Assembly: GCA_009773765.1 (NCBI GenBank)
Contig: WTWZ01000022.1
Coordinates: 11,081 to 72,283, forward strand
Direction: 5' to 3'
DNA: 61,203 nt
Source: Prolixibacteraceae bacterium
GTDB taxonomy: Bacteria > Bacteroidota > Bacteroidia > Bacteroidales > Prolixibacteraceae
In this document: piece by piece, positions 6,726-20,361 of the stretch
Layout of the letters: every line of letters begins with the position of its first letter
How positions within the stretch are numbered: position 1 is the first letter of the stretch
Notes under the pieces: model-generated
The model's database searches: none
Told to the model about the DNA's origin: nothing
The model's input: the letters and a program-made list of their open reading frames with translations, nothing else
Translations under genes and position numbers: made by a program

Positions 6726-7139
6726 ATGGGCGATGTACATAACACCGCAACCCGTAGCTATAACATGAGCCGCATTAAGGGGAAAAACACAAAACCCGAA
6801 ACGCTCGTGCGGAATTTTTTGTTTGCCAATGGATACAGGTACAGGCTGAATGTAAAAACCCTCCCCGGGAAACCCGATATTGTTTTACCCAAATACAAAA
6901 CCGTCATTTTTATTAACGGCTGTTTCTGGCACGGACACGAAGGCTGCCGTTATTTTGTTATTCCCAAAACCCGCACCGATTGGTGGCTGAATAAAATTGG
7001 CGATACCCAAAAACGCGACCACGAATCTGAAAATCAGTTGACCGATTTGGGATGGAAAGTGATTGTAATCTGGGAATGTGGATTGAAAAAAGATGCTTTA
7101 AATAAAACATTGAGCGAGTTAACAAAAATCCAAAATTAA
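6726..7139 (+). CDS. vsr: Very short patch repair (Vsr) endonuclease
   Basis: The 137-residue protein matches Vsr from start to end: RSYNMSRIKGKNTKPE at the N-terminus, the catalytic-region KPDIVLPKYKTVIFINGCFWHGH (Asp and the His of WHGH), a WWLNKI segment and the C-terminal GWKVIVIWEC. Vsr nicks 5' of the T in T:G mismatches made when 5-methylcytosine deaminates, in the E. coli case within CT(A/T)GG. Its position just upstream of a 5mC methyltransferase operon fits that job. The length agrees with the family (about 130-156 residues). The gap to the regulator holds the inverted repeat, so it may be transcribed separately. Confidence 0.92.
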   Translation: MGDVHNTATRSYNMSRIKGKNTKPETLVRNFLFANGYRYRLNVKTLPGKPDIVLPKYKTVIFINGCFWHGHEGCRYFVIPKTRTDWWLNKIGDTQKRDHESENQLTDLGWKVIVIWECGLKKDALNKTLSELTKIQN

Positions 7140-7232: not shown

Positions 7233-7263
7233 GTGACTTATATGCAAATGTATTATAAGTCAC
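7233..7263 (+). promoter_or_regulatory. C-box-like inverted repeat upstream of the HTH regulator
   Basis: GTGACTTATA (7233-7242) and its exact complement TATAAGTCAC (7254-7263) flank an 11-base spacer, with arm centres 21 bases apart (two helical turns). The core GACTTATA resembles C-boxes of restriction-modification controller proteins. It ends 19 bases before the regulator ATG, so autoregulation is likely. A weaker related string, ACTCTTATAAAGT, lies at 7203-7215. Confidence 0.7.
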
Positions 7264-7282: not shown

Positions 7283-7510
7283 ATGGATTTAAAAAGGAAA
7301 ATTGGTCAACGAATAAAAGGATTACGGGAAGAAAAAAACCTAAAACAAGAAGAACTTGCCTGGCAATCAAATCTCGACAGAACCTATTTGAATCATGTTG
7401 AAACAGGTAAAAGAAACATTACGGTTGCGAGCTTGCAGAAGATTGTTGTGGACGGATTAAAAATTACACTTTCAGATTTCTTTAATCATGAATTCTTTAA
7501 AGAAAATTAG
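7283..7510 (+). CDS. XRE-family regulator resembling restriction-modification controller (C) proteins
   Basis: The 75-residue protein is almost entirely a helix-turn-helix: IGQRIKGLREEKNLKQEELA, then DRTYLNHVETGKRNITVASLQKI, ending LSDFF. Size and sequence style match C proteins, which bind operators as dimers and time the expression of restriction genes. Its stop codon overlaps the methyltransferase start by 23 bases, so the two are translationally coupled. Because methyltransferase and effectors share this transcript, it would control the whole DISARM operon and not the nuclease alone, unlike a classical C-controlled restriction system. Confidence 0.8.
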   Translation: MDLKRKIGQRIKGLREEKNLKQEELAWQSNLDRTYLNHVETGKRNITVASLQKIVVDGLKITLSDFFNHEFFKEN

Positions 7511-8771
7511 TTTAAACTTTATTGATCTTTTCTCGGGTGCAGGAGGACTTTCAGAAGGTTTTATACGTGCCGGATTTAACCCGGTTGCACATGTTGAAAT
7601 TGATGAAGCAGCGTGTAATACTTTACTTACAAGAACAGTTTACCACAAACTTAAAAATACAACTGGATTTGAACTGTATAAATCATATCTGAAAGGGAAA
7701 TTGTCCAAGGAAAAATTACACGGATTACTGAATGTGGACGAATATAATTCCGTTATAAATCTGGCTATATCAGATGAAAATAATCCTGTCATTTTTAAAA
7801 GAATAGATGACCTTATAAATGGAAAATCCATTGATTTAATAGTCGGCGGGCCACCATGTCAGGCTTATTCGCTGGCAGGTAGGGCAAGAGATAAGAAAAA
7901 AATGAAAGGCGACAGCCGGAATTATTTGTTTCAGCAATACGCAAAATATCTTGAATATTACAAACCCAAAATATTTGTCTTTGAAAATGTATTAGGTCTT
8001 TTATCAGCAATGAATGAAGATGGTTCAAAGTACATCGATCAAATGATTTCTCTTTTTTCAGAAGTTGGATATATAACTGAGTACAAGTTGGTAAATGCTT
8101 CAGATTTTGGTGTTTTACAAAATCGGAAAAGAGTAATACTTATTGGTAAAAAAGGTAAGGAAACTGGTTTCTATCCTGAATTTGAAAAAAATGCAGATAA
8201 TAAAACTGCACTGGTAAAAGAAATACTGGCAGATTTGCCCGAAATCCAGGCTGGTTCAGGAGACTGGTTTAATGTAAAATATAAAAATAAAGGGAGTGAA
8301 TATGTTTTTGATGCCAGTATCAGAAATGGAATTGATTTTACTACCCAGCATATAGCAAGACCACACAATAATCAGGACAAAGAAATTTATAGAATTGCTG
8401 TTAAAAAATGGAACTCCGGACAAACACGGCTTGATTACAATGATTTACCAGATGAATTAAAGAGCCATAGTAACAGACATTCTTTTGTTGACCGTTTTAA
8501 AGTTGTAGCCCCCGATTTAACAAAAACACAGACAGTTGTTGCGCATATTGCAAAAGACGGACATTATTATATACATCCTGATATATTCCAGAACCGTTCA
8601 TTAACGGTGCGTGAAGCTGCACGGCTTCAATCATTTCCCGATGATTATTTTTTTGAAGGTATTGATGAAAAACCAAGCAGGACTGCAGCTTTCAAACAAA
8701 TTGGCAATGCTGTACCTCCTCTTTTAGCTGAACAAATAGCAAAAAAAATAAAACAGTTGATAAAAATTTGA
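7488..8771 (+). CDS. drmMII: DNA (cytosine-5) methyltransferase, DrmMII of DISARM
   Basis: The 427-residue protein carries the 5mC methyltransferase motifs in order: motif I FIDLFSGAGGLSEGF (about 11-25, AdoMet binding), motif IV GGPPCQAYS with catalytic Cys124, motif VI ENV (Glu166), motif VIII QNRKRV (211-216), motif IX near LTVREAARLQSFPD and motif X GNAVPP (406-411). The target recognition region lies between about 217 and 370. In DISARM the DrmMII enzyme marks host DNA, at CCWGG in the Bacillus system studied, so that the DrmA/DrmB machinery spares it. The specificity here cannot be read from sequence, but the neighbouring Vsr is consistent with a Dcm-like site. The start at 7488 overlaps the regulator gene. 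Confidence 0.9.
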   Translation: MNSLKKISLNFIDLFSGAGGLSEGFIRAGFNPVAHVEIDEAACNTLLTRTVYHKLKNTTGFELYKSYLKGKLSKEKLHGLLNVDEYNSVINLAISDENNPVIFKRIDDLINGKSIDLIVGGPPCQAYSLAGRARDKKKMKGDSRNYLFQQYAKYLEYYKPKIFVFENVLGLLSAMNEDGSKYIDQMISLFSEVGYITEYKLVNASDFGVLQNRKRVILIGKKGKETGFYPEFEKNADNKTALVKEILADLPEIQAGSGDWFNVKYKNKGSEYVFDASIRNGIDFTTQHIARPHNNQDKEIYRIAVKKWNSGQTRLDYNDLPDELKSHSNRHSFVDRFKVVAPDLTKTQTVVAHIAKDGHYYIHPDIFQNRSLTVREAARLQSFPDDYFFEGIDEKPSRTAAFKQIGNAVPPLLAEQIAKKIKQLIKI

Positions 8772-8795
8772 TATAACCCACTAACTCTTTATACC

Positions 8796-11303
8796 ATGAA
8801 CCAAGAACTAACTCAAAAACTGCAATATTCTTATTTAGGGGAGCTTGATAAATTTCCACTTCCTCAACCAATTAAGGAATCGCTTCAAATCATTTCAAAT
8901 TTTTTCGATAACAACACGAACAATAAACTTTGTATAGTTTTTCCAACAAAGGAATTTGCAGCGCAATGGCTTTCTATTCCAACAGTTTTATTACTAATCG
9001 AATCTGACTTTGCACAATTTAAAAACGAAATAGTTGATTCATTAGAAAAGTATAAAAAAGGTGATCGATTAATTCTGAATAATGAGGCGGTTGTTGAATG
9101 GCATGGAAGAAGCCCGGACGGATTTATATTTAAGCATAAAGAGTATAATAATATAGATGAAATCAGCATAGAAATCAAGAAAATTTCAAAGATTCAACCT
9201 GCTCCATGCAATCGCAAAGCTTTATCAGGTCTCAATAGAGTTATGCAAGCTATTGCAAAAAGCAATGAAAATCCGACAGATAAAATTCTTGGGATACAAA
9301 CGGATGGAAATAAACTCTATCAGAAAAATTCTATTTGCTTAGTCAGCAAACACATTTCATTTGAGAATTCAATTTCAGAAATCGCAATAAACAATTTTTT
9401 AGTTGACGAGTATTTTAAACGAGGGAAAATTGATGATGCTGGAGAAGCTGATATGAAAAGTCCGCTTTTAATTACTAACAACTTGACAAATCTTGCTTTG
9501 TATGTAACACTATCAGACACTGTTTCGAAAATTATTATTGACGGCTATTCTACAATTCAAGAAAGGAAATTAGACTTCAACGATATTGATGCAAAGAAAA
9601 TTCCTACGATTTTAATTACTGACCTTTCGGAGGTTGGAAATTTTGAGAACATTGGAGAATATGGTTTTGATTTTTACAATTTCACAAAAGAAAATTTACA
9701 ACTTGATGAGATAAAAGTATTATCTCCTTTTAGTTCCTTTGACAAGAAACTTCACAAATATGTTTCTTTCAATTTGCAAAAAGAAATTTGTGAAAATGCT
9801 GACCTTGAAAGTATAACAAAACTAATTCACTCAATTGACAAAGATGAATCGGTTAAGGAGTTAATTAGTCTGAAAATTCTATTGATTCAACTCATAAATC
9901 ATGTTGCAAGAATTGCTCATCCCCTAACCCAAAATGAAGTTGCAGTGTACAGAGGCATGTTAAACAAGGCAGAAACACTTTTGTTTGAAAACAGATTTTA
10001 TTTAGGTGGTTCTCGCAAAGCAATTGAGGATTCAATTTCCTTATTGAAATTTGTTATTGAAAAATTCTCAAGTACTCCGTCAGAAAAAAGTGCCAAGTTG
10101 AGTGAATTAATGCAAAAAAATCAATATGACTGTATCATTTGCCCAACCGAAGATGAAGCACTTTCTTTGACTTTGCATTTGAACTCACTTCGTCTTGCGG
10201 TCAAGCCTAAGGTTATTACAGTTGCAGATGTAAACAACAGTTTGCTAGAAATCCAGCCAGTGAAAGCAATTCTGACAGGATGGGCAAAGACTAATAATGT
10301 GAATCGACTATTATCAAGTTTTTTATTTACTGAATTAACAGTTTTGTTCTATCAATTTGAGTGCAAGTATCTCAATTCACTTCAAAACAGGAACAAGAAA
10401 TTAAGCGGCAATGTAAAATCAACCATCAATAAAAAAGGAATTCGCTCCGAAAAAGAAACGAAAAACGAATCCGGCTATGCCGATTTATTTAAAAGCGAAT
10501 CAACATCTGATACCGAACCAAATTTTGACATAGTAGAGTTTGAATTGAAATTAGACAACGCACAATTTTCAAAATACATAGTAAGAGGGAGTATAGCAGA
10601 AAGTGTGAAAGCAAAAAGAGTTGAATTCAAGAACGACAAGTTTATTTATCTTACAGATACGCATAGTCTGCTTGTCTTGGAGAATTTCTATCAATCCACA
10701 AGCAATTCTTTATACATTCATAAAAGCCGTATTGAGAATCTGCATTATGGAGATGTAATTGCATTTCTGAAAACAGAAAGAGAGTTGCTTAGTAAAATAG
10801 TTGGAAGACAAACTACTCCGGCAGCATTGGCAGAAACTAATAGATGGATTGAACTTTGGAAAACCGTACTTAAGAATCATTACAAATTCCTCCACAATAA
10901 TTTCAATAAGTTGGCAAATGATTTAAAGGAACAAGGTTGTGACCGTGACCCTGTTACAATTCGTTCATGGTTATTTGATGACTTAAGAATTGGTCCAAGG
11001 AAAGATGATGACCTAATTGCCATTGCAATTATGACTAATGGAACGGAGCTAATGGACAATATCAATCAAGTTAGGGCAGCAATCAAACAAATGACAAGTT
11101 GGAGGATGAAAGCTTCTGACTTTGTGGTTGAACAATTAAAAGCAAAAATCAAAAGCACACACTCAGATATTCAAGTTAACAATGTTATTGATTTTGAAGA
11201 TTTAGGTGAGGTTGAAATTTTGGAAATAACCGAAATAAACAATTCACATGACAACATTGATATTAGAAATGTAAACCGACTTCTGGAAAAGGCAAAACTG
11301 TAA
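8796..11303 (+). CDS. drmE: DISARM protein DrmE (class 2 signature component)
   Basis: The 835-residue protein begins with ELDKFPLPQPIKESLQIISN, then a block that looks like a helicase-like fold without a Walker A lysine loop (LCIVFPTKEFAAQW, then KKGDRLILNNEAVVEWHG). A second block near residues 445-500 (YDCIICPTEDEALSLTLHLN) resembles the second RecA-like lobe. A charged linker about residues 530-580 leads to a C-terminal helical domain with DPVTIRSWLFDD. No intact NTPase or nuclease motif is visible. Identity rests on length, N-terminal style and position between a 5mC methyltransferase and DrmA/DrmB; its molecular role in DISARM is not settled. The gap to drmMII is 24 bases and the stop overlaps the next ATG by one base. 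Confidence 0.72.
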   Translation: MNQELTQKLQYSYLGELDKFPLPQPIKESLQIISNFFDNNTNNKLCIVFPTKEFAAQWLSIPTVLLLIESDFAQFKNEIVDSLEKYKKGDRLILNNEAVVEWHGRSPDGFIFKHKEYNNIDEISIEIKKISKIQPAPCNRKALSGLNRVMQAIAKSNENPTDKILGIQTDGNKLYQKNSICLVSKHISFENSISEIAINNFLVDEYFKRGKIDDAGEADMKSPLLITNNLTNLALYVTLSDTVSKIIIDGYSTIQERKLDFNDIDAKKIPTILITDLSEVGNFENIGEYGFDFYNFTKENLQLDEIKVLSPFSSFDKKLHKYVSFNLQKEICENADLESITKLIHSIDKDESVKELISLKILLIQLINHVARIAHPLTQNEVAVYRGMLNKAETLLFENRFYLGGSRKAIEDSISLLKFVIEKFSSTPSEKSAKLSELMQKNQYDCIICPTEDEALSLTLHLNSLRLAVKPKVITVADVNNSLLEIQPVKAILTGWAKTNNVNRLLSSFLFTELTVLFYQFECKYLNSLQNRNKKLSGNVKSTINKKGIRSEKETKNESGYADLFKSESTSDTEPNFDIVEFELKLDNAQFSKYIVRGSIAESVKAKRVEFKNDKFIYLTDTHSLLVLENFYQSTSNSLYIHKSRIENLHYGDVIAFLKTERELLSKIVGRQTTPAALAETNRWIELWKTVLKNHYKFLHNNFNKLANDLKEQGCDRDPVTIRSWLFDDLRIGPRKDDDLIAIAIMTNGTELMDNINQVRAAIKQMTSWRMKASDFVVEQLKAKIKSTHSDIQVNNVIDFEDLGEVEILEITEINNSHDNIDIRNVNRLLEKAKL

Positions 11304-13036
11304 TGGCTAAACTATCTCCACCATATATTGACAAAGATTGCAAAAGCACCGGAGAGAGAATGATTTTTGACATGCTCAAAAAAGATTCTTTCACCGAGGA
11401 TTGGATTGTTTTACACTCTCTCAATCTTTCGCAACATACCAAACGACTTTACGGCGAGATAGATTTTTTGCTTCTCATTCCAAACGCAGGTGTCTTTGTG
11501 ATGGAAGTAAAGGGCGGTGATGTGAGGTGCAAAAACGGAGAATGGGAATTTATTGACAGGCATGGAAATGTAAACAGAAACAAAAGCCCATTCAATCAGG
11601 CAAGGGATGCAATGTTTTCACTTCAAGCGGAAGTCAAAAAAGAATTTGGAGCAAAGCACAGGTTCAACAAAATCCAGCTTGGCTTTCTCGTTGCATTTCC
11701 ACAGGTGAACTTTGATAAAAATAGCGTAGAATATGAGCAGTGGCAAATCTTTGACAAGACAAATTACAATTCAAACCACGAAACATTTTTTAAAAACTTA
11801 ATCCAGCAGTTTACAGAGAAACATAAAACACAGCTTTGGTTTTCACCAACTGAATCGTTACCAAGCCGACAAGACCTTGAAGAACTTTGTCATTTTCTTA
11901 GGGGGGATTTTATGAGAGTTCGTTCAGCAAAAGAACGCCTAGCTGAATTTGATTCACAAGTTAAAACCTACACCGAAGAACAATTCGGCGTTCTTGAATC
12001 AATTGAACTCAATGAACGAAGTTTGGTTCAGGGAAGTGCCGGAACGGGAAAGACAATGATTGCGATTGAATCAGCAATCAGAGCAGCAGCGGAAGGTAAA
12101 AAGGTTTTTCTTACTTGCTACAATAGAATTATCGGAGAATGGATGCAGAAGCAACTTGAAGGATGGAGCAACATCACTGTTTCAAGTTTACACAGTTATT
12201 TGTTTGAATTGACAAAAGGTTTTGACTACGACAAAACGCAAGAAAATAAGCAAGATTTCTATTCAAAGTATTTGCCTAATCTTATGAAGGAATTTTTCAA
12301 GATTGGAGTAAAAGGAAAGTTTGATAAATTGATTATTGATGAAGGCCAGGACTTAATAAGAGAAGAATATTTAGGCTTATTTGACTCAATGCTCACAAAC
12401 GGTTTAGCAAATGGGAATTGGGAAATATACGGCGACTTTGAAAGGCAAGCGATATTTGCACAACTTTCAAAATCCGAAATGCTTGACTTGCTTAAAACTT
12501 TTGGACATCATTCAAAACATTTGTTGCGTATAAATTGCCGTAACACAAAAGAGATAGGAGAAGAAACATCTTTGATTTCGGGATTTGAAAAACCGCCATT
12601 CCTTTTAGAATATCTTGAGGGACTTCCGGTAGCTTACCATTTTTACAGAGATGAAGCACACCAAAAACAAATTCTTAATGAACAATTAAAAAAAGTAGCT
12701 GACGAAGGCTTACCTCTCAACGAAATGGTAATACTTTCTCCAAAGAAACTTGAAAACTCTTGTGTGAAATCCCTTCCTGACTATTCAATTAAAGAAATTA
12801 AAACAGCAAACGAAGTTTCCGCAACTCAAAAGTATTTTGGATTTGCAACAGTACAGTCATACAAAGGAATGGAAGGCAACTATATCTTGATTACTGACAT
12901 TGAAGATTTATCAAGCGAAGTTGCTAAATCTCTCTTGTATGTAGGCATGAGCAGGGCACGATATGGATTGATACTTTTAATTTCTGAAGCAATTCAACGC
13001 CAGTATTGCGAAATTTTACAAAACAAACTCAGATAA
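11303..13036 (+). CDS. NERD nuclease-related domain fused to UvrD-type SF1 helicase
   Basis: The 577-residue protein has an N-terminal NERD domain (about 14-135) with the PD-(D/E)XK-like residues Glu18, Glu52 and Asp54 (YGEIDFLLL), Glu68-Val69-Lys70 (VMEVKGG) and Gln99. From about residue 220 follows an SF1 helicase: Q-motif region TEEQFGVLESI, Walker A GSAGTGKT (244-251), Walker B LIIDEGQD (343-350), a motif III-like YGDFERQAIF, a motif V-like YKGMEGNYILITD and motif VI YVGMSRAR. It should be an ATP-driven DNA translocase able to cut or process DNA. It lies inside the operon, sharing one base with drmE and one base from drmA. NERD-helicase is not one of the canonical five DISARM genes; it may replace the missing DrmC nuclease. 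Confidence 0.88.
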   Translation: MAKLSPPYIDKDCKSTGERMIFDMLKKDSFTEDWIVLHSLNLSQHTKRLYGEIDFLLLIPNAGVFVMEVKGGDVRCKNGEWEFIDRHGNVNRNKSPFNQARDAMFSLQAEVKKEFGAKHRFNKIQLGFLVAFPQVNFDKNSVEYEQWQIFDKTNYNSNHETFFKNLIQQFTEKHKTQLWFSPTESLPSRQDLEELCHFLRGDFMRVRSAKERLAEFDSQVKTYTEEQFGVLESIELNERSLVQGSAGTGKTMIAIESAIRAAAEGKKVFLTCYNRIIGEWMQKQLEGWSNITVSSLHSYLFELTKGFDYDKTQENKQDFYSKYLPNLMKEFFKIGVKGKFDKLIIDEGQDLIREEYLGLFDSMLTNGLANGNWEIYGDFERQAIFAQLSKSEMLDLLKTFGHHSKHLLRINCRNTKEIGEETSLISGFEKPPFLLEYLEGLPVAYHFYRDEAHQKQILNEQLKKVADEGLPLNEMVILSPKKLENSCVKSLPDYSIKEIKTANEVSATQKYFGFATVQSYKGMEGNYILITDIEDLSSEVAKSLLYVGMSRARYGLILLISEAIQRQYCEILQNKLR

Positions 13037-13037
13037 A

Positions 13038-16000
13038 ATGAGAGACGATATTCTAAAATTTATAAAAAGAGAATTAATTGGCCCCGACCCAGTTAAGCCT
13101 CATATTCAGGAGAACGGAGAGGAAATTCTATTGAATGAGCCGCCTAGATTGAGATATGGTGCAGGAATTTTATTTCCATCGCCAAACAGAGACGGAGAAG
13201 GTGCAACTTATTCAGCAGCAGATTCAACAACGGCAACAGAAGAAGAAGTAATAAAAAACACAGAAGAAACAAGTATTGAGAGTTCAGAAACAATTGTTGA
13301 TAATAACACATCATCAAATGTTGGTGATGACTTTGAAGAAGAAATTGGATTAGCAAATAATTTCCTTCCTTCTGCAATGGGATTCAGTTGCTTTTCAAAA
13401 ATTCCAAACGAAGGTTTCAAAGTGCAGGTTAATGTTGGAATTTATGAAATTAATGATTACAGTTACAAAAAGGATGATGGAACAGATGTACATAGGAAAG
13501 CATATTACCGAACTTCATTAAACCAACCTTTGTCGATACCGTCAAGCGACATTCCGCTGATTTCCGGAACTTCAAAAGAGTTTACTTTAGTTGGTAAGGA
13601 TACAAAAAAAATTGAACTGGTTTTGAATATCAGAAACCGAACACATGGAAATAATTCCGATAAAAACATACATCTCCTGACTTTTACCTTAATAAACAAA
13701 AACAAAGGAGCAAGAGAAAATATCAGGAATGAAGATTGCTTTTTTCAGGTTTCTTTTTCAGTAAATGCAAGTGAAAAATGTTTTTGTCCTTACAAATTAG
13801 CAGCGTCAAAGACAGACCAAGATGATGAGAAATCAAACCAACTTCTTTTCCGAAAGAAAAAGACTTTTGCCGTTGGTCATGGCTGCTCTCCTGCATGGGC
13901 TGATGATGATTCTGAACTTGTAAACACAATTACAACAGAAGCAATTCCTTCATATGAAATAAAACCAATCGTTCCGAATGAATTAAAAAGTGTTGCCTTG
14001 AAAATGTTTGATATGAGTGATTTGACAGCAGGCGACATCACTTCAAATCTTATTCAGTTAAATGCAGAATATGAGAATTGGATTAACGAACAAGAAGGAA
14101 TTGCAAACAGGGAGCTGACAGGAGAATTTCTCACTACTGCCAAAAGACACATTTCAAGTTGCCGTGCATGTTTGAAACGAATGAAAGAAGGAGTTGATTT
14201 ATTAAAGAGTAATTCAAAAGTCAACCGTGCTTTTAGATTAATGAATAAAGCGATGTTGCTTCAACAACTTCATTATGGAATTGACACAAGGAATTGGATT
14301 GTAGAAAAAGGTTTAATCACTGGCCTGGAGAAAGCAATTATTCCTGACCTACATGACCAATCAACCTGGCAAAAGAATCCAGATGGAAGTTTACGAGTTG
14401 GTTCATGGAGGCCTTTTCAAATTGCATTCATCCTGATTAATCTTCATTCAATGCTGGATGAAAAACATCCTGACAGAAAAATGGTTGACCTCATTTGGTT
14501 TCCAACTGGTGGCGGTAAAACAGAAGCATATTTGGGATTATCTGCTTACACAATTTTTCTCAGAAAACTCAAAGACAAAACTGATTCAGGTACTTCTGTT
14601 CTGATGCGTTATACTTTGCGATTGCTGACAGCTCAACAATTCCAAAGGGCAGCAGCATTAATTTGTGCATGTGAAAAAATCCGTGAGGAAAACAAAGACG
14701 AATTAGGAACAGACCGAATCACAATTGGACTTTGGGTTGGAGAATTGACACCGAATAAGAGAGGAGATGCGACAAAAACATTAAAGAAGATGTCGCAAGG
14801 AAAAGAAGATGAAAGCCCCTTTGTGGTTTTGAAATGCCCCTGGTGTGGAAGTCAGATGGGATTGATTAAGGGAACTAAGAAAGATGAGATAAAGGGATAT
14901 AAAACAAGAAAGGTCGGAAGTCACGAAACTGTTGTTTTCAAATGCGACAACGAGAGTGAATGTGATTTTTCACATGAAGATTTTCGTTTGCCTTTGCTAG
15001 TAATTGACGAAGACATTTATGATTTTCCGCCTACTCTCTTAATCGGAACGGTTGATAAATTCGCAATGCTAACATGGAGACCAGAAGCAAGAAGTCTTTT
15101 CGGATTTATTGGCAACGAAAGAAAAACTCCACCAGAACTAATAATTCAAGATGAGTTACACTTGATTTCAGGCCCGTTGGGTTCAATGGTTGGTTTGTAT
15201 GAAACAATGATTGAAGAGCTTTGTACTGCCAATGACATCAAACCTAAAATTATTGCATCGTCAGCTACAATCAGCAGAGCTAAAGAACAAATCAATTCAC
15301 TGTACGGCAGAGGAGTTGAGAACGTAAATATTTTTCCATCACAATGCCTTAGTGCAGGCGATTCCTTTTTCGCCTACGAAGAAAGAAGTTCTGACAATGC
15401 CCCCGGACGATTGTATGTAGGGGTGTTTGCATCAGCATTGCCCTCACATGCAACAGCACAGGTAAGAGTTTTATCCGCATTACTTCAATCTGTAAAATCA
15501 ATTCCTGTTACAGATGAGAAATTGCGTGACCCATACTGGACTGCTATGACTTACTTCAACAGCATTCGTGAATTAGGTCATGCAGCAACTTTGATTCGTG
15601 CTGACATCACGGAATATCTGAACTCCATTTACATCAGAAAAAAAATCACAGGAACCGACAGAAGATTTATCAATGTTGACAGAGAGCTTACAAGCCGTAT
15701 CAACAGCAGTCAAATTACTGACATACTTGAAGAATTAATGAAGGAATACCCGAAAGAAAAATATCCAATTGATATTTGCCTTGCAACAAATATGATTTCG
15801 GTTGGAGTTGATATTCCACGATTAGGTTTAATGACAGTAATCGGACAGCCGAAAACAACATCGGAATACATTCAGGCAACAAGTCGTGTTGGTCGTTCAA
15901 AGAAGGGGCCCGGACTTATCTTTACAATATACAATTGTTCAAAACCGAGAGACCGTTCACACTTTGAACACTTCCAGGAATATCACTCAAAGATTTACAG

Positions 16001-16433
16001 CAAGGTAGAACCAACAAGTGTTACACCGTTTTCACCACCTGCCAGAGAACGGGCATTGCATGCAATACTTGTAGGGTTGATTAGATTTTATTCCGAAACA
16101 AACAGGGAGTTACCAACTCCATTTCCAACCAAAGAAATTATTCAGAAGGTCAGAGAAATAATTTTCCGCAGAGTATCTGAAATTGATAAAGAAGAAATTC
16201 AGAAAACAATTGAGATGGTTGAGAGAAGATTGGAACAATGGCAACATAATTTGCCAATCATTTACGGTTCGTTTGCACAAACAGATAATTTACCATTGAT
16301 GTACCCTGCAGGAACAAATCCACCGGAACAAACGAAGTTCAGAGCATGGTCAACACCAACTTCAATGAGAAATGTTGACTCAACCTGTGATGCAATCGTA
16401 ATTAATGAATATATAAACATTGATACTTTGTAA
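13038..16433 (+). CDS. drmA: DISARM helicase DrmA
   Basis: The 1131-residue protein is a large SF2-type helicase. An acidic low-complexity segment sits at about residues 55-100. Walker A is PTGGGKTEA from about 489, the Walker B box is DELH (705-708), motif III is ASSAT, and motifs V and VI are SVGVDIPRLGL (about 919) and QATSRVGRSKKG (about 946). A four-cysteine zinc site (CPWC at 600-603, C636, C642) is inserted in the first RecA lobe. Known DrmA forms a complex with DrmB that loads on unmethylated or overhang DNA. Length fits DrmA (about 1,100-1,300). Distances of 1 base upstream and 8 bases downstream mark one operon. Confidence 0.9.
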   Translation: MRDDILKFIKRELIGPDPVKPHIQENGEEILLNEPPRLRYGAGILFPSPNRDGEGATYSAADSTTATEEEVIKNTEETSIESSETIVDNNTSSNVGDDFEEEIGLANNFLPSAMGFSCFSKIPNEGFKVQVNVGIYEINDYSYKKDDGTDVHRKAYYRTSLNQPLSIPSSDIPLISGTSKEFTLVGKDTKKIELVLNIRNRTHGNNSDKNIHLLTFTLINKNKGARENIRNEDCFFQVSFSVNASEKCFCPYKLAASKTDQDDEKSNQLLFRKKKTFAVGHGCSPAWADDDSELVNTITTEAIPSYEIKPIVPNELKSVALKMFDMSDLTAGDITSNLIQLNAEYENWINEQEGIANRELTGEFLTTAKRHISSCRACLKRMKEGVDLLKSNSKVNRAFRLMNKAMLLQQLHYGIDTRNWIVEKGLITGLEKAIIPDLHDQSTWQKNPDGSLRVGSWRPFQIAFILINLHSMLDEKHPDRKMVDLIWFPTGGGKTEAYLGLSAYTIFLRKLKDKTDSGTSVLMRYTLRLLTAQQFQRAAALICACEKIREENKDELGTDRITIGLWVGELTPNKRGDATKTLKKMSQGKEDESPFVVLKCPWCGSQMGLIKGTKKDEIKGYKTRKVGSHETVVFKCDNESECDFSHEDFRLPLLVIDEDIYDFPPTLLIGTVDKFAMLTWRPEARSLFGFIGNERKTPPELIIQDELHLISGPLGSMVGLYETMIEELCTANDIKPKIIASSATISRAKEQINSLYGRGVENVNIFPSQCLSAGDSFFAYEERSSDNAPGRLYVGVFASALPSHATAQVRVLSALLQSVKSIPVTDEKLRDPYWTAMTYFNSIRELGHAATLIRADITEYLNSIYIRKKITGTDRRFINVDRELTSRINSSQITDILEELMKEYPKEKYPIDICLATNMISVGVDIPRLGLMTVIGQPKTTSEYIQATSRVGRSKKGPGLIFTIYNCSKPRDRSHFEHFQEYHSKIYSKVEPTSVTPFSPPARERALHAILVGLIRFYSETNRELPTPFPTKEIIQKVREIIFRRVSEIDKEEIQKTIEMVERRLEQWQHNLPIIYGSFAQTDNLPLMYPAGTNPPEQTKFRAWSTPTSMRNVDSTCDAIVINEYINIDTL

Positions 16434-16441
16434 ATTATATT

Positions 16442-18325
16442 ATGCCAGCAAATAAACCAATAAGAAGGTCACAGCTTATTTCGCCCTGGGGAGTAGGGCA
16501 AATGATAAACTTTCCGAAAGATGAATCTTTAATGGTAGCAGGTCTTGATTTGTGGGAACTGAAATTCAGAGAACTTGAAAGGTCAAAATCATTAGACGAA
16601 TTTATCGTTGAAGAAGAACGACTTGCAAAAAGATTACGGGTAAAAAACTTTCGTTTGCCGCCAGACTTCCGAGACAACATTCTTGAAAAGACAAATCAAT
16701 TTTTAAAAATCCCGTTTGTGCGATTTCCGAGATGGCATTACTGCACAAATTGCGGATATATGCACAAAGTCCCGATATTTCACCATGAAAAACCAAGATG
16801 TTTGGGATTGCCTTTTCAGGGAAAATCTTGTTCCACAATACCACAGAACAAAAGAAGAAAATTAATTCCAGTAAGATTCATTGCCATTTGTCCACAAGGA
16901 CACATTGAAGATTTTCCATTTGAAGAATGGGTTCACAATGGTTCAAAATGCACAGACACAAATCCAATAATGAGATTAAGGGCAGGAAGGAGTTCAGGTG
17001 CCTTGTCTGGTATTGAAATTCTTTGCAGTTGCGGACAAAATAAGTCAATGGCTGGAGCATTCAATGAAAACGCATTGCAACGAATTGGAGTAAATTGTCA
17101 TGCAGAAAGACCTTGGGTTGGTGAAGAATATGAAAAACATAACACTCAGCATTGCCCACAACAATTAAGGGTAGTTCAGAAAGGTGCATCAAATGTTTAT
17201 TTTTCAAATGTTCGAAGTTCAATTTATCTTCCGCAATGGCAACCGTCAGTTGATTCAGAACTCATAAATATTCTTGAAAAAAATTGGGGCTTTTTAAATG
17301 ATGGCAGGGTAAATGATGATTTTGACCGGAAAAGGTTCATGCTAGTTGTAATGCAAAAGTTGCAGGTTGATTTTGACAAAACAGATTTCTGGGTAGATAA
17401 ATTAATTGATGCAGCAAAGAAAAAAATTATCGGTTACGATGCGATGCCTGCAACAGATTCGGAAGAGTTCTATAGAAAGATGGAATACGATGCTATTCTT
17501 ACAGAGCCAGGTTCAGAAAAGCAGGATTTTTATGTTTCTAAAGTAAAGGTTGATGAATACACTGAAAACAAAATCATTTCAAAAGGTTTTGACAGCATTT
17601 GCTTATTGCACAAGCTAAGAGAGACAAGAGCATTTACAGGCTTTTCAAGATGGTTGCCTGTTGATGGAAAAGCTTTGGAAGCAAAGAAAGATTTCATAAA
17701 ACTTGGAGCAAGCATAAACTGGTTGCCGGCAATTGTAGTGCGGGGTGAAGGAGTGTTCTTTAAATTCAGTGAAAAGTCATTGAAAGAGTGGGCTGCAAAA
17801 AAGGAAGTGATTGAAAGAGTAAATGGACTTGCAAAGAATTTTAACAAAACAAAACTTGACAAAGGACAGGAAGCAAGAAACATTTCACCCGAATTTATCT
17901 TGATTCACACCTTTGCTCATTTAGTTATAAACCAATTCAGCTATGAATGTGGCTATGGAAGTTCTGCATTGCGGGAAAGAATTTACTGCAATCTTGAATT
18001 TCCAGACGAAGTAATGAACGGAGTATTGATTTACACCGCTTCTGGGGATTCAGAAGGGTCTTTAGGTGGTCTTGTAAGGCAGGGAAAACCAGGTAATCTT
18101 GAAACAATAGTTTACAATTCAATTGAAAATGCAAGATGGTGTTCAAGCGATCCAATCTGTATTGATAGTCATGGACAAGGCCCAAACTCATGCAATTTAG
18201 CTGCTTGTCATAATTGTGCATTACTCCCTGAAACTTGTTGTGAGGAATCAAATATGTTACTTGATAGGGCAATGTTAATTGGTACTTTAGATAATCCTGA
18301 AATGGGTTATTTTAATAGCATTTAA
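16442..18325 (+). CDS. drmB: DISARM protein DrmB (DUF1998 domain)
   Basis: The 627-residue protein opens with RRSQLISPWGVGQMINFP, typical of DrmB. A zinc ribbon is visible (HYCTNCGYMHK, Cys101/Cys104, with a later Cys), plus another cluster LCSCGQNK. The C-terminal DUF1998 domain carries LIHTFAHLVINQFSYECG (His489, His493), the glycine-rich YTASGDSEGSLGGL and the Cys cluster CNLAACHNCALLPETCC. DUF1998 is the partner module of MrfA/DrmA-type helicases; DrmB binds DrmA and helps engage DNA. It is the last intact gene of the operon; where drmC would be expected there is only the HNH remnant. Confidence 0.9.
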   Translation: MPANKPIRRSQLISPWGVGQMINFPKDESLMVAGLDLWELKFRELERSKSLDEFIVEEERLAKRLRVKNFRLPPDFRDNILEKTNQFLKIPFVRFPRWHYCTNCGYMHKVPIFHHEKPRCLGLPFQGKSCSTIPQNKRRKLIPVRFIAICPQGHIEDFPFEEWVHNGSKCTDTNPIMRLRAGRSSGALSGIEILCSCGQNKSMAGAFNENALQRIGVNCHAERPWVGEEYEKHNTQHCPQQLRVVQKGASNVYFSNVRSSIYLPQWQPSVDSELINILEKNWGFLNDGRVNDDFDRKRFMLVVMQKLQVDFDKTDFWVDKLIDAAKKKIIGYDAMPATDSEEFYRKMEYDAILTEPGSEKQDFYVSKVKVDEYTENKIISKGFDSICLLHKLRETRAFTGFSRWLPVDGKALEAKKDFIKLGASINWLPAIVVRGEGVFFKFSEKSLKEWAAKKEVIERVNGLAKNFNKTKLDKGQEARNISPEFILIHTFAHLVINQFSYECGYGSSALRERIYCNLEFPDEVMNGVLIYTASGDSEGSLGGLVRQGKPGNLETIVYNSIENARWCSSDPICIDSHGQGPNSCNLAACHNCALLPETCCEESNMLLDRAMLIGTLDNPEMGYFNSI

Positions 18326-18393
18326 TTTTTTTTCTATGTTTAATTTAAAAAAATTAATGACCAAACTTCTCCAAAATATCCTTTTCCTAATCT

Positions 18394-18647
18394 ATGCACC
18401 AACAAAATAACGATTCAATCAAAAACGGTTTGGCTTTGTCACCCATTTTTCACTATGCTTTCGACAGGGAGTTGATTGCCATTTCAAATAATTACAAAGT
18501 CCTTGTTTATCCAAAACCCAAACATTTCAAACCCGGCCCAGGAATCAGGAAGTACGAAACCGGAAAATTTATCTGTCTGCCGCCGAAAAGTTGCATCCTT
18601 CGTTGTACAGCCTTCGCGGGCACTGCGTAAAATTAGGGTATAACTAA
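18394..18647 (+). pseudogene. Truncated and frameshifted HNH endonuclease remnant
   Basis: Residues NNDSIKNGLALSPIFHYAFD followed by RELIAISNNYKVLV match the C-terminal half of HNH restriction-type endonucleases (NDSIxNGIALxPxxHRAFDRGLI). The first half with the other metal-site residues is missing, and a stop codon (18388-18390) lies just upstream. Near 18590 the frame breaks in an AAAA run: reading on with one extra A gives KKLHPSLYSLRGHCVKLGYN, the expected tail, ending at 18647. So it is broken twice. It follows drmB on the same strand and may be the relic of a nuclease once linked to this defence locus. Confidence 0.65.
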
Positions 18648-18656
18648 AGTTCATCT

Positions 18657-18866
18657 CTATAATTTTCCCCACCACTTTCCGGCTTTGCGGAATAGGCCCA
18701 GGGTTACCTTTTCCATTGATTCTCCTGCTTTGCGGTAGGGTTCGCTTTTATAAATTTTATTGGTGGTTTCATCTATCAGTTCTTCCGCTTTATCAATCAA
18801 TTTGTCGGTTATGCCATCAACAAAACCTTTTTTCTTTTTCTCTATCACGTTTTTATCAGGTTCCAT
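18657..18866 (-). CDS. Small hypothetical helical protein
   Basis: The 69-residue protein is highly charged (KKKKGFVDGITDKLIDKAEE) and predicted all-helical, with an amphipathic C-terminus (GLFRKAGKWWGKL) that could touch membranes. It has no signal peptide. A plausible ATG start lies in an A-rich context. I recognise no family. It converges with the HNH remnant and precedes gdhA on the same strand. Confidence 0.5.
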   Translation of the reverse strand: MEPDKNVIEKKKKGFVDGITDKLIDKAEELIDETTNKIYKSEPYRKAGESMEKVTLGLFRKAGKWWGKL

Positions 18867-19008
18867 ACTTTAATTTTTTCTGATTTCGGCTAAATTAATC
18901 ATTTGGCAGGAATTCCGTCAATCCCAAAATGCAATAACACGGTTTTAAACCGAATGGTTCGGCTTAGCTTCCTTCGGGCACACAGGTGATTTTGCGGTGT
19001 AATGATAT

Positions 19009-20361
19009 TTAAACCAATCCCTGTGCAATCATTGCATCGGCAACTTTAATAAAACCGCCGATATTGGCGCCTTTCACGTAATTAATAAAATTGCCTTCGG
19101 TTCCGTGTTTTACGCAGGTACTGTGGATATCCTTCATAATCTGGTGTAAACGGGCGTCCACTTCCTCGCGCGACCATAGTAAACGCATTGAGTTTTGGGT
19201 CATTTCAAGTCCCGATGTGGACACGCCGCCGGCATTCGACGCCTTGCCCGGTGCATACATGATTTTTGCGTTCAGGAACACTTCAACCGCCTCGGGGGTG
19301 GATGGCATATTGGCGCCTTCAGCCACGAGGTAACATCCGTTTTTAACCAGCGTTTTGGCTTCCTCTTCGTTCAGTTCGTTTTGAGTTGCACAGGGCATTG
19401 CAATATCGCATTTTACAGCCCACGGGCGCTGGCCCTCAACATATTTTGCTTTCGGGTATTTTTCGCAGTACTCCTGTATGCGGCCGCGTTTCACGTTTTT
19501 CAGTTCGAGAACGTAGGCCAGTTTTTCGTTGTCGATGCCATCGTGGTCATAAATATAACCGTTCGAATCGGAGAGGGTAACCACTTTGCCGCCCATCATG
19601 TTCACTTTTTCAACAGCATATTGTGCCACATTTCCTGAGCCTGAAACTGTAACAATTTTGCCTTTCAGTCCCATGCTGCGCATTTTGAGCATCTCTTCGG
19701 CAAAATAAACGGTTCCGTAGCCTGTTGCCTCGGGCCGTATTAAACTTCCGCCCCATTCGATTCCTTTTCCGGTAAGCACACCGGTAAACTCGTTCCGAAG
19801 TCTTTTGTACTGGCCAAACATGTAACCAATTTCGCGCCCGCCCACTCCAATATCACCTGCGGGCACGTCGGTATTGGGGCCGATGTGGCGTTGCAGTTCG
19901 GTCATAAAACTCTGGCAAAAACGCATAACTTCATTATTCGACTTTCCTTTCGGGTCGAAATCGGAACCACCTTTCCCACCGCCCATTGGCAGCGTGGTGA
20001 GGCTGTTTTTAAATACCTGTTCGAAGGCAAGGAATTTCAAAACCCCGAGGTTTACGGTAGGGTGAAAACGCAAACCTCCCTTGTAAGGGCCAATGGCGCT
20101 GTTCATTTCAATGCGGTAACCTTTGTTAATGTGTATTTCGCCTTTATCGTCCTGCCACGGAACACGGAACATGATAATCCGCTCGGGCTCCGAAACCCTT
20201 TCGAGGATTTTGGCCTGTTTGTAGTGCGGGTTCTCTTCGATAAACGGCATTACCGATTCTACCACTTCCTGAACTGCCTGGTGAAACTCCAGTTCATTTG
20301 GATTCCTGGCAATGAGTTTTGCCATGAAATCGTTTACTTTTACTTCGAATGTATTCGACAT
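19009..20361 (-). CDS. gdhA: Glutamate dehydrogenase, NADP-type (hexameric)
   Basis: The 450-residue protein matches bacterial NADP-dependent glutamate dehydrogenases over its full length. The glutamate site includes KGGLRFHPTVN and the catalytic-lysine motif PMGGGKGGSDFDPKG. Then come DVPAGDIGVGGREIGYM and the Rossmann motif VSGSGNVAQYAVEK, followed by the C-terminal GGVSTSGLEMTQN. It interconverts 2-oxoglutarate plus ammonium and glutamate, the main ammonium entry route in many Bacteroidota. It is monocistronic. The length is as expected (about 445-450). Confidence 0.96.
   Translation of the reverse strand: MSNTFEVKVNDFMAKLIARNPNELEFHQAVQEVVESVMPFIEENPHYKQAKILERVSEPERIIMFRVPWQDDKGEIHINKGYRIEMNSAIGPYKGGLRFHPTVNLGVLKFLAFEQVFKNSLTTLPMGGGKGGSDFDPKGKSNNEVMRFCQSFMTELQRHIGPNTDVPAGDIGVGGREIGYMFGQYKRLRNEFTGVLTGKGIEWGGSLIRPEATGYGTVYFAEEMLKMRSMGLKGKIVTVSGSGNVAQYAVEKVNMMGGKVVTLSDSNGYIYDHDGIDNEKLAYVLELKNVKRGRIQEYCEKYPKAKYVEGQRPWAVKCDIAMPCATQNELNEEEAKTLVKNGCYLVAEGANMPSTPEAVEVFLNAKIMYAPGKASNAGGVSTSGLEMTQNSMRLLWSREEVDARLHQIMKDIHSTCVKHGTEGNFINYVKGANIGGFIKVADAMIAQGLV

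Follow-up and report, generated by a model that had tools for sequence, protein, structure and literature searches.

The operon described here lies in a 61,203-nt stretch of DNA from a Prolixibacteraceae bacterium (assembly GCA_009773765.1, contig WTWZ01000022.1, positions 11,081 to 72,283 of the forward strand), hereafter called the window. It is probably a variant of the DISARM (defence island system associated with restriction-modification) system in which a fusion of a NERD nuclease and a UvrD-type helicase (NERD-UvrD) acts as the nuclease in place of the phospholipase D (PLD) protein DrmC. Its genes follow each other with tight spacing in the order drmMII-drmE-NERD/UvrD-drmA-drmB; that is, the NERD-UvrD gene overlaps drmE by 1 base on its 5′ side and its stop codon lies 1 base ahead of drmA. 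An earlier note on this DNA, made from the sequence alone, had proposed a single tight operon of the four drm genes enclosing a 577-residue NERD-UvrD protein with precisely these junctions, and both points are borne out by the open reading frames (ORFs) and by their matches to family models. The five genes are (positions are those of the window):

7488..8771, + strand: drmMII, DNA cytosine-5 methyltransferase (PADLOC DrmMII, 2.5e-168; PF00145)
8796..11303, + strand: drmE (NF038316, 472 bits, cut-off 80; PF24957 DrmE_C, 43 bits, cut-off 27)
11303..13036, + strand: fusion of a NERD nuclease and a superfamily 1 (SF1; UvrD/Schlafen-type) helicase, 577 aa (PF08378, 47 bits, cut-off 22; PADLOC RTasNERD-Hel, 2.6e-36, and NERD+UvrD, 3.5e-24)
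13038..16433, + strand: drmA, YprA-like superfamily 2 helicase (NF038325, 978 bits, cut-off 950; PADLOC DrmA, 2.2e-231)
16442..18325, + strand: drmB, DUF1998/MZB partner of DrmA (NF038324, 464 bits, cut-off 240; PF09369)

The genetic features of DISARM in the broad sense are present: DrmA and DrmB are separate, adjacent genes that both score above their NCBIfam cut-offs, and a methyltransferase, DrmMII, is encoded inside the operon. Family scores above cut-off also ruled out a chance match or misread ORFs. The DrmE protein matches the NCBIfam DrmE family at 472 bits yet no PADLOC model, as is the case for the DrmE proteins of two related loci (L068 and L087); its AlphaFold model had a pLDDT of 54 and a pTM of 0.36, and a Foldseek search with that model gave no match at E ≤ 0.001.

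No drmC gene was found in the locus, and a DrmC encoded elsewhere in the genome was rejected since none scored above cut-off: the best match to the DrmC model NF038319 in the whole genome was a 505-aa protein on another contig (29 bits against a cut-off of 133), and none of the seven genome matches to the PLD domain (PF13091) lay on the contig of the window. The absence of drmC claimed by the earlier note thus stands, also with regard to a copy just outside the operon or elsewhere in the genome. Its description of drmC as a core DISARM gene does not fit the passages of Bravo et al. (2022; PMC9142583) in which DrmC is called dispensable and frequently missing. Among the genomes of 24 NERD-UvrD loci, 17 contained a match to the DrmC model (E ≤ 0.001), above cut-off in only two, and both of these above-cut-off genes adjoin a separate drmA-drmB pair on another contig.

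The AlphaFold2 model of the NERD-UvrD protein (pLDDT 85.5, pTM 0.67) had its best Foldseek matches among SF1 helicases, including Schlafen 11 and 14, Upf1, Dna2 and UvrD, and a profile search agreed with this (HelD, PcrA, UvrD, Schlafen 11 and GajB). All Pfam matches of the helicase half were below cut-off, and its SF1 motifs and fold were clear. The best PADLOC match of the protein was the reverse-transcriptase-associated NERD helicase (RTasNERD-Hel). Conservation was assessed in 40 DISARM copies, taken from 43 NERD-labelled loci after leaving out L035, L096 and L112, in which the fetched piece contained no full NERD-UvrD. The NERD residues E18, D54, E68 and K70 were kept in all 40 copies and E52 in 39. 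The helicase residues K250, D346, E347 and R551 were likewise kept in 40 of 40, a figure that counts for less because the genome scan for NERD-UvrD selected on two of these motifs and the conservation is partly by construction.

The arrangement recurs in other genomes and phyla, as the earlier note had suggested should be checked; a complete relative lies, for instance, on a plasmid of Rhodococcus opacus B4. A search keyed on DrmE covered 395 genomes of the class and 395 of the phylum of the window (overlapping sets), 296 genomes of the phylum of Microtetraspora glauca and 348 of that of a Paenibacillaceae genome. Fourteen genomes matched, of which 13, window included, were examined (G1342, at 18.5 bits, was left out). 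NERD-UvrD stood beside DrmE in 11 of these 13 loci, including all eight above the DrmE cut-off; the two without an intact NERD-UvrD were L077 and L091 (broken copy). DrmC was found in none of the 13 within the DNA fetched, which in L010 and L067 stops before drmB. One locus, L068, has the order of the window (vsr-methylase-drmE-NERD/UvrD-drmA-drmB), and L088 and L089 are near-copies of one another. When the search was keyed on DrmA instead (E ≤ 1e-40; 249 + 247 genomes, 496 in all), 7 + 14 = 21 genomes matched, the 14 being spread over eight genera; NERD-UvrD was present in 13 (5 + 8), DrmC in two (0 + 2), both in none and neither in six. In G1201, one of these genomes, a single contig has NERD-UvrD at one end and DrmA at the other; in G165, one gene separates the two, and the NERD-UvrD sequence is more divergent. 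Finally, a scan of species genomes keyed on NERD-UvrD gave, among the matches listed, 34 loci, 22 of them with DrmA or DrmB in reach and none with DrmC in the fetched DNA. Two candidates were discarded along the way: the NERD-UvrD match in L050 is annotated as a pentapeptide-repeat protein, and a 238-aa gene beside DrmB in L098, considered as a PLD gene, turned out to be HNH.

NERD-UvrD was found on 21 plasmid records and DrmC, sought with a single query, on 22, with no record common to both. Among the 60 listed of the 85 plasmid DrmA records, 11 carried NERD-UvrD and 18 DrmC; the chance of zero overlap between these is 0.012 if the records are taken as independent, which they are not. A DrmE search of plasmids gave no match, and one of viral contigs yielded nothing useful. 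On predicted viral contigs, four of the seven NERD-UvrD loci among the matches listed adjoin DrmA or DrmB (L128, L129, L132 and L133, with drmA and/or drmB next to NERD-UvrD); a cytosine methylase is also present in L128, L129 and L133.

The placement of NERD-UvrD varies, and three main arrangements can be distinguished. In the first, that of the window, drmE (whole or as two genes) is followed by NERD/UvrD, drmA and drmB; in the second, which exists in two orders, the companions of drmA and drmB are NERD/UvrD, a small UvrD-like gene and one unknown gene; the third, UvrD helicase-drmA-drmB-NERD/UvrD, occurs on several plasmids of Alphaproteobacteria. Five loci (L103, L106, L098, L039 and L044) show gene orders unlike any of these. 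The statement of the earlier note that NERD-UvrD is inserted into a class 2 operon does not hold, since the gene also adjoins drmA-drmB in loci where no drmE can be recognised, and other orders occur as well. The first arrangement is firm in the phylum of the window, in Actinomycetota (L011, L015, L018, L019, L076 and L078) and in L087 to L090, from the phylum of the Paenibacillaceae genome. Sorting-signal and CHU_C domains point to Bacteroidota as the phylum of the window. The label DrmE is given mainly from gene position in Pseudomonadota (L014 and L017) and in a Thermoanaerobaculia genome (L016). The drmE and NERD-UvrD genes overlap by 1 base in L010 and L068, and by 1 base at the same position in L032, where the 918-aa gene had no NCBIfam match; the overlap is 4 bases in L017. 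The two-gene DrmE of Rhodococcus had no match in L014, L016, L017 or L021, and since position was one of the criteria for choosing the genes behind the two-gene DrmE models, the DrmE labels of these four loci and their matches to the models are by construction. The second gene of L014 has a sub-cut-off match to NF038316 (22 bits), and the next gene in L021 does not resemble DrmA. Compared with intact DrmE, the two-gene DrmE matched well in its C part (E 2e-6) and weakly in its N part (E 0.08); L069 and L078, found through NF038316 itself, matched both two-gene models.

Some of the other loci showed further gene combinations. In L102 (~12969-19201) a 690-aa Piwi-domain gene and an unknown 559-aa gene directly precede an 816-aa gene, drmA and drmB, which would place a putative Argonaute-like gene beside DISARM. 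In L104 (9066-14063) DrmA and DrmB are encoded in a single 1665-aa frame; the small UvrD-like gene and the unknown gene that goes with it come next, and NERD-UvrD is absent. L113 (14333-14935), on an Azospirillum plasmid, has a gene annotated as belonging to the DarT single-stranded DNA ADP-ribosyltransferase family after NERD-UvrD. On a Lactiplantibacillus plasmid (L116, 2436-11517) the order is cytosine methylase-801-aa gene-drmA-drmB, with neither NERD-UvrD nor DrmC, and the 801-aa protein had no NCBIfam match.

The divergence of NERD-UvrD follows that of the core genes. Across 37 loci (the 40 copies less L039 and L044, whose DrmA is distant, and one locus without DrmB), pairwise NERD-UvrD distances correlated with those of DrmA at 0.82 and with those of DrmB at 0.73; within the clade of the window (15 loci) the correlation with DrmA was 0.91. 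The methyltransferase, by contrast, taken as the best cytosine methylase per fetched stretch and thus possibly lying outside the operon, correlated with DrmA at 0.31 (22 loci, p 0.005) and 0.24 (14 loci, p 0.025). It therefore seems that NERD-UvrD has remained associated with the DrmA-DrmB core, whereas the methyltransferases would have been exchanged more. In a tree of DrmA from 64 loci the ten DrmC loci form a single clade (support 100), and the window falls in a group of 20, made up of 18 NERD-UvrD loci and two with neither gene (support 100); separating NERD-UvrD from all other labels took 10 changes, against a mean of 17.8 after shuffling. This is a quick, unrooted tree with long-branch and composition warnings, most of its rows come from searches keyed on NERD-UvrD, and its sample includes no class 2 loci with drmC. 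In the tree of NERD-UvrD itself, the drmE-labelled copies occupy one half, separated by a weakly supported branch (75), with three label changes.

Taken from these comparisons, the operon is likely to represent a recurrent DISARM variant in which NERD-UvrD is a standing component, a nuclease effector beside the DrmA-DrmB motor; the idea of a distinct subtype, which had been made conditional on recurrence, is supported to the extent of a distinct recurrent variant. The mutual exclusion of the two genes and the kept active sites suggest that NERD-UvrD would have taken over the job of DrmC. A working sequence of events can be proposed. DrmMII would mark host DNA with 5-methylcytosine, which is in keeping with the presence of a vsr gene next to drmMII (see below), because Vsr repairs deaminated 5-methylcytosine. 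DrmA-DrmB would then load on DNA that is unmodified and offers single strands, either free or unwound; passages of Bravo et al. (PMC9142583) report this for a DrmAB complex from structure and biochemistry. DrmE, translated in step with NERD-UvrD, could link or regulate DrmA-DrmB and NERD-UvrD, allowing a hand-over, upon which NERD-UvrD would travel along the exposed strand by its SF1 motor and cut with its PD-(D/E)xK domain. The resulting machine, comparable to RecBCD or AddAB, would combine one nuclease with two motors.

A number of observations weigh against this reading. Fifteen of the 24 NERD-UvrD genomes have only sub-cut-off PLD matches, some of them short proteins (G395, G404), and with such matches in 17 of 24 an outside PLD nuclease could still act. 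Six of the 21 DrmA-keyed genomes carried neither gene in the fetched DNA (G1050, G1081, G194, G616, G472 and G545), G1081 and G616 being cut by a contig end, and drmA-drmB occurs together with a DrmE-like gene and without NERD-UvrD in L077, L050, L051 and L107 (DrmE_C just below cut-off); NERD-UvrD is thus not strictly required. Likewise, 31 of the 60 listed plasmid DrmA records were matched by neither query, and the methyltransferase correlations, weak as they are, lie above nil. Moreover, the substrate of NERD-UvrD could be RNA, given that human Schlafen RNases are among its best structural matches.

This last point touches a rival explanation, that NERD-UvrD, instead of being the main nuclease, serves as a backup effector: once DrmA-DrmB is blocked, it would bring about abortive infection by attacking DNA or RNA of the host cell. 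Passages of two papers (PMC12839542, PMC10853773) propose such a role for the NERD domains of PglW and DndF, and Schlafen 11 and 14 are among the best Foldseek matches. We consider this unlikely: the divergence that NERD-UvrD has in common with DrmA, the position of its gene between drmE and drmA in loci of the window's kind, not at the operon edge, and the fact that it never shared a locus with DrmC among those examined all speak against a backup role, without being decisive. That NERD-UvrD relatives can stand outside DISARM is clear from the NERD-UvrD-keyed scan, where neither DrmA nor DrmB was in reach in 12 of the 34 loci among the matches listed (L021, L029, L030 and L040 lying at contig ends), and from L013, L130, L131 and L134. 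Together with the PADLOC match to a reverse-transcriptase-associated helicase, this could suggest a defence gene in its own right, carried along with DISARM operons yet acting alone, like NERD-helicase genes elsewhere; the tight spacing on both sides of the gene in the window and in L068, the divergence shared with DrmA and DrmB and the presence of NERD-UvrD in 11 of 13 DrmE-keyed loci make this quite improbable. Least credible is an ordinary class 2 DISARM that has lost drmC and in which NERD-UvrD plays no special role. The reported dispensability and frequent absence of DrmC (PMC9142583, in part) would allow for it; the absence of DrmC from all 34 listed NERD-UvrD loci and the retention of the NERD residues in 39 to 40 of 40 copies stand against it.

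Upstream of drmMII, two genes that the earlier note did not mention, and an inverted repeat, were found:

6726..7139, + strand: vsr, very-short-patch repair endonuclease (TIGR00632, 145 bits, cut-off 98; PF03852)
7233..7263, no strand: inverted repeat with 10-nt arms and 11-nt spacer, possible operator of the small helix-turn-helix (HTH) protein
7283..7510, + strand: XRE/HTH_3 protein, 75 aa (PF01381, 39 bits, cut-off 23), overlapping the drmMII start

The vsr gene overlaps drmMII in the relative L010 and meets the methylase gene with a 1-base overlap in L068, and is therefore probably an operon member, as its first gene. The inverted repeat (GTGACTTATA/TATAAGTCAC) lies 19 bases upstream of the HTH_3 gene. 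Gene and repeat look like a restriction-modification controller and its operator ahead of the DISARM operon, and the 75-aa protein is possibly a controller of the restriction-modification C-protein type. Counterparts among the small ORFs of loci L010 to L117 were weak only (L117, 9.5e-8; L027, 0.002). A glutamate dehydrogenase gene, looked at in 21 genomes of the genus, flanks the locus. A possible second cassette occurs in L012 (1832-7271) and L114 (1-5147): next to the DISARM genes, both loci have, in identical order, a cytosine methylase gene, one unknown gene, a DUF2357 gene and then vsr.

Among the closest known systems is class 2 (type II) DISARM (DrmA, DrmB, DrmC, DrmE, DrmMII), with which the operon shares DrmMII, the DrmE family, a short-form DrmA and DrmB as separate genes of one operon. 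The operon differs in having no DrmC, in the NERD-UvrD gene between drmE and drmA, in the vsr and small HTH genes at its 5′ side and in a DrmE unmatched by PADLOC models. With class 1 (DrmD, DrmMI, DrmA, DrmB, DrmC) only the DrmA-DrmB core is common; the window lacks DrmD, an adenine methylase and DrmC, and the ten DrmC loci stand apart as a clade of their own in the DrmA tree. TALON, according to passages of Bell et al. (2025; PMC12458937), likewise combines a YprA-family helicase with a NERD nuclease, but in TALON the helicase is of the ARMADA-like kind and is accompanied by TPR-CSD and TBP genes, whereas here DrmA and DrmB are separate DISARM proteins and the partner fused to NERD is an SF1 helicase; neither Pfam nor NCBIfam models detected TPR, CSD or TBP in any of the six operon proteins. 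Gabija (whose UvrD-like motor GajB is a profile match of NERD-UvrD), Druantia III and Hachiman also couple a helicase motor to a nuclease, with different proteins and architecture, so that the comparison is one of working principle only. The reverse-transcriptase-associated NERD helicase is a full-length homologue of NERD-UvrD (2.6e-36); no reverse transcriptase was found in the six operon proteins or in ten large flanking proteins, smaller ORFs being only partly scanned.

In the passages of Bell et al. (PMC12458937), DISARM is presented with the PLD protein DrmC, NERD is named for TALON only, and many uncharacterised DISARM-like classes are mentioned. No description of NERD-UvrD in DISARM was found in abstracts and passages of the open-licence literature, and the novelty of the variant is provisional. 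The type II definition of PADLOC, as given in part of its paper (PMC9252829), requires DrmC in addition to DrmE and DrmMII; by this rule the window has DrmMII, lacks DrmC and has a DrmE that matches the NCBIfam family and none of the PADLOC models, and since such loci are not counted as type II, the diversity of DISARM is probably understated.

How DISARM achieves degradation is called a mystery in passages of Bravo et al. (PMC9142583), which propose a recruited outside PLD nuclease. Encoded inside the operon, with its active-site residues kept and never together with DrmC in the loci examined, NERD-UvrD is a candidate DISARM nuclease that is testable gene by gene, and it may be the DNA-cutting component that appears to be missing from many DISARM systems. 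A more tentative and somewhat doubtful extension is that NERD-UvrD is the older and commoner DISARM nuclease, which DrmC replaced later and only in one branch; this would fit the DrmA tree, because the ten DrmC loci form one clade and NERD-UvrD loci lie on several sides of it. If so, DISARM systems in general would be helicase-nuclease machines with two motors, and many loci without drmC would find an explanation.

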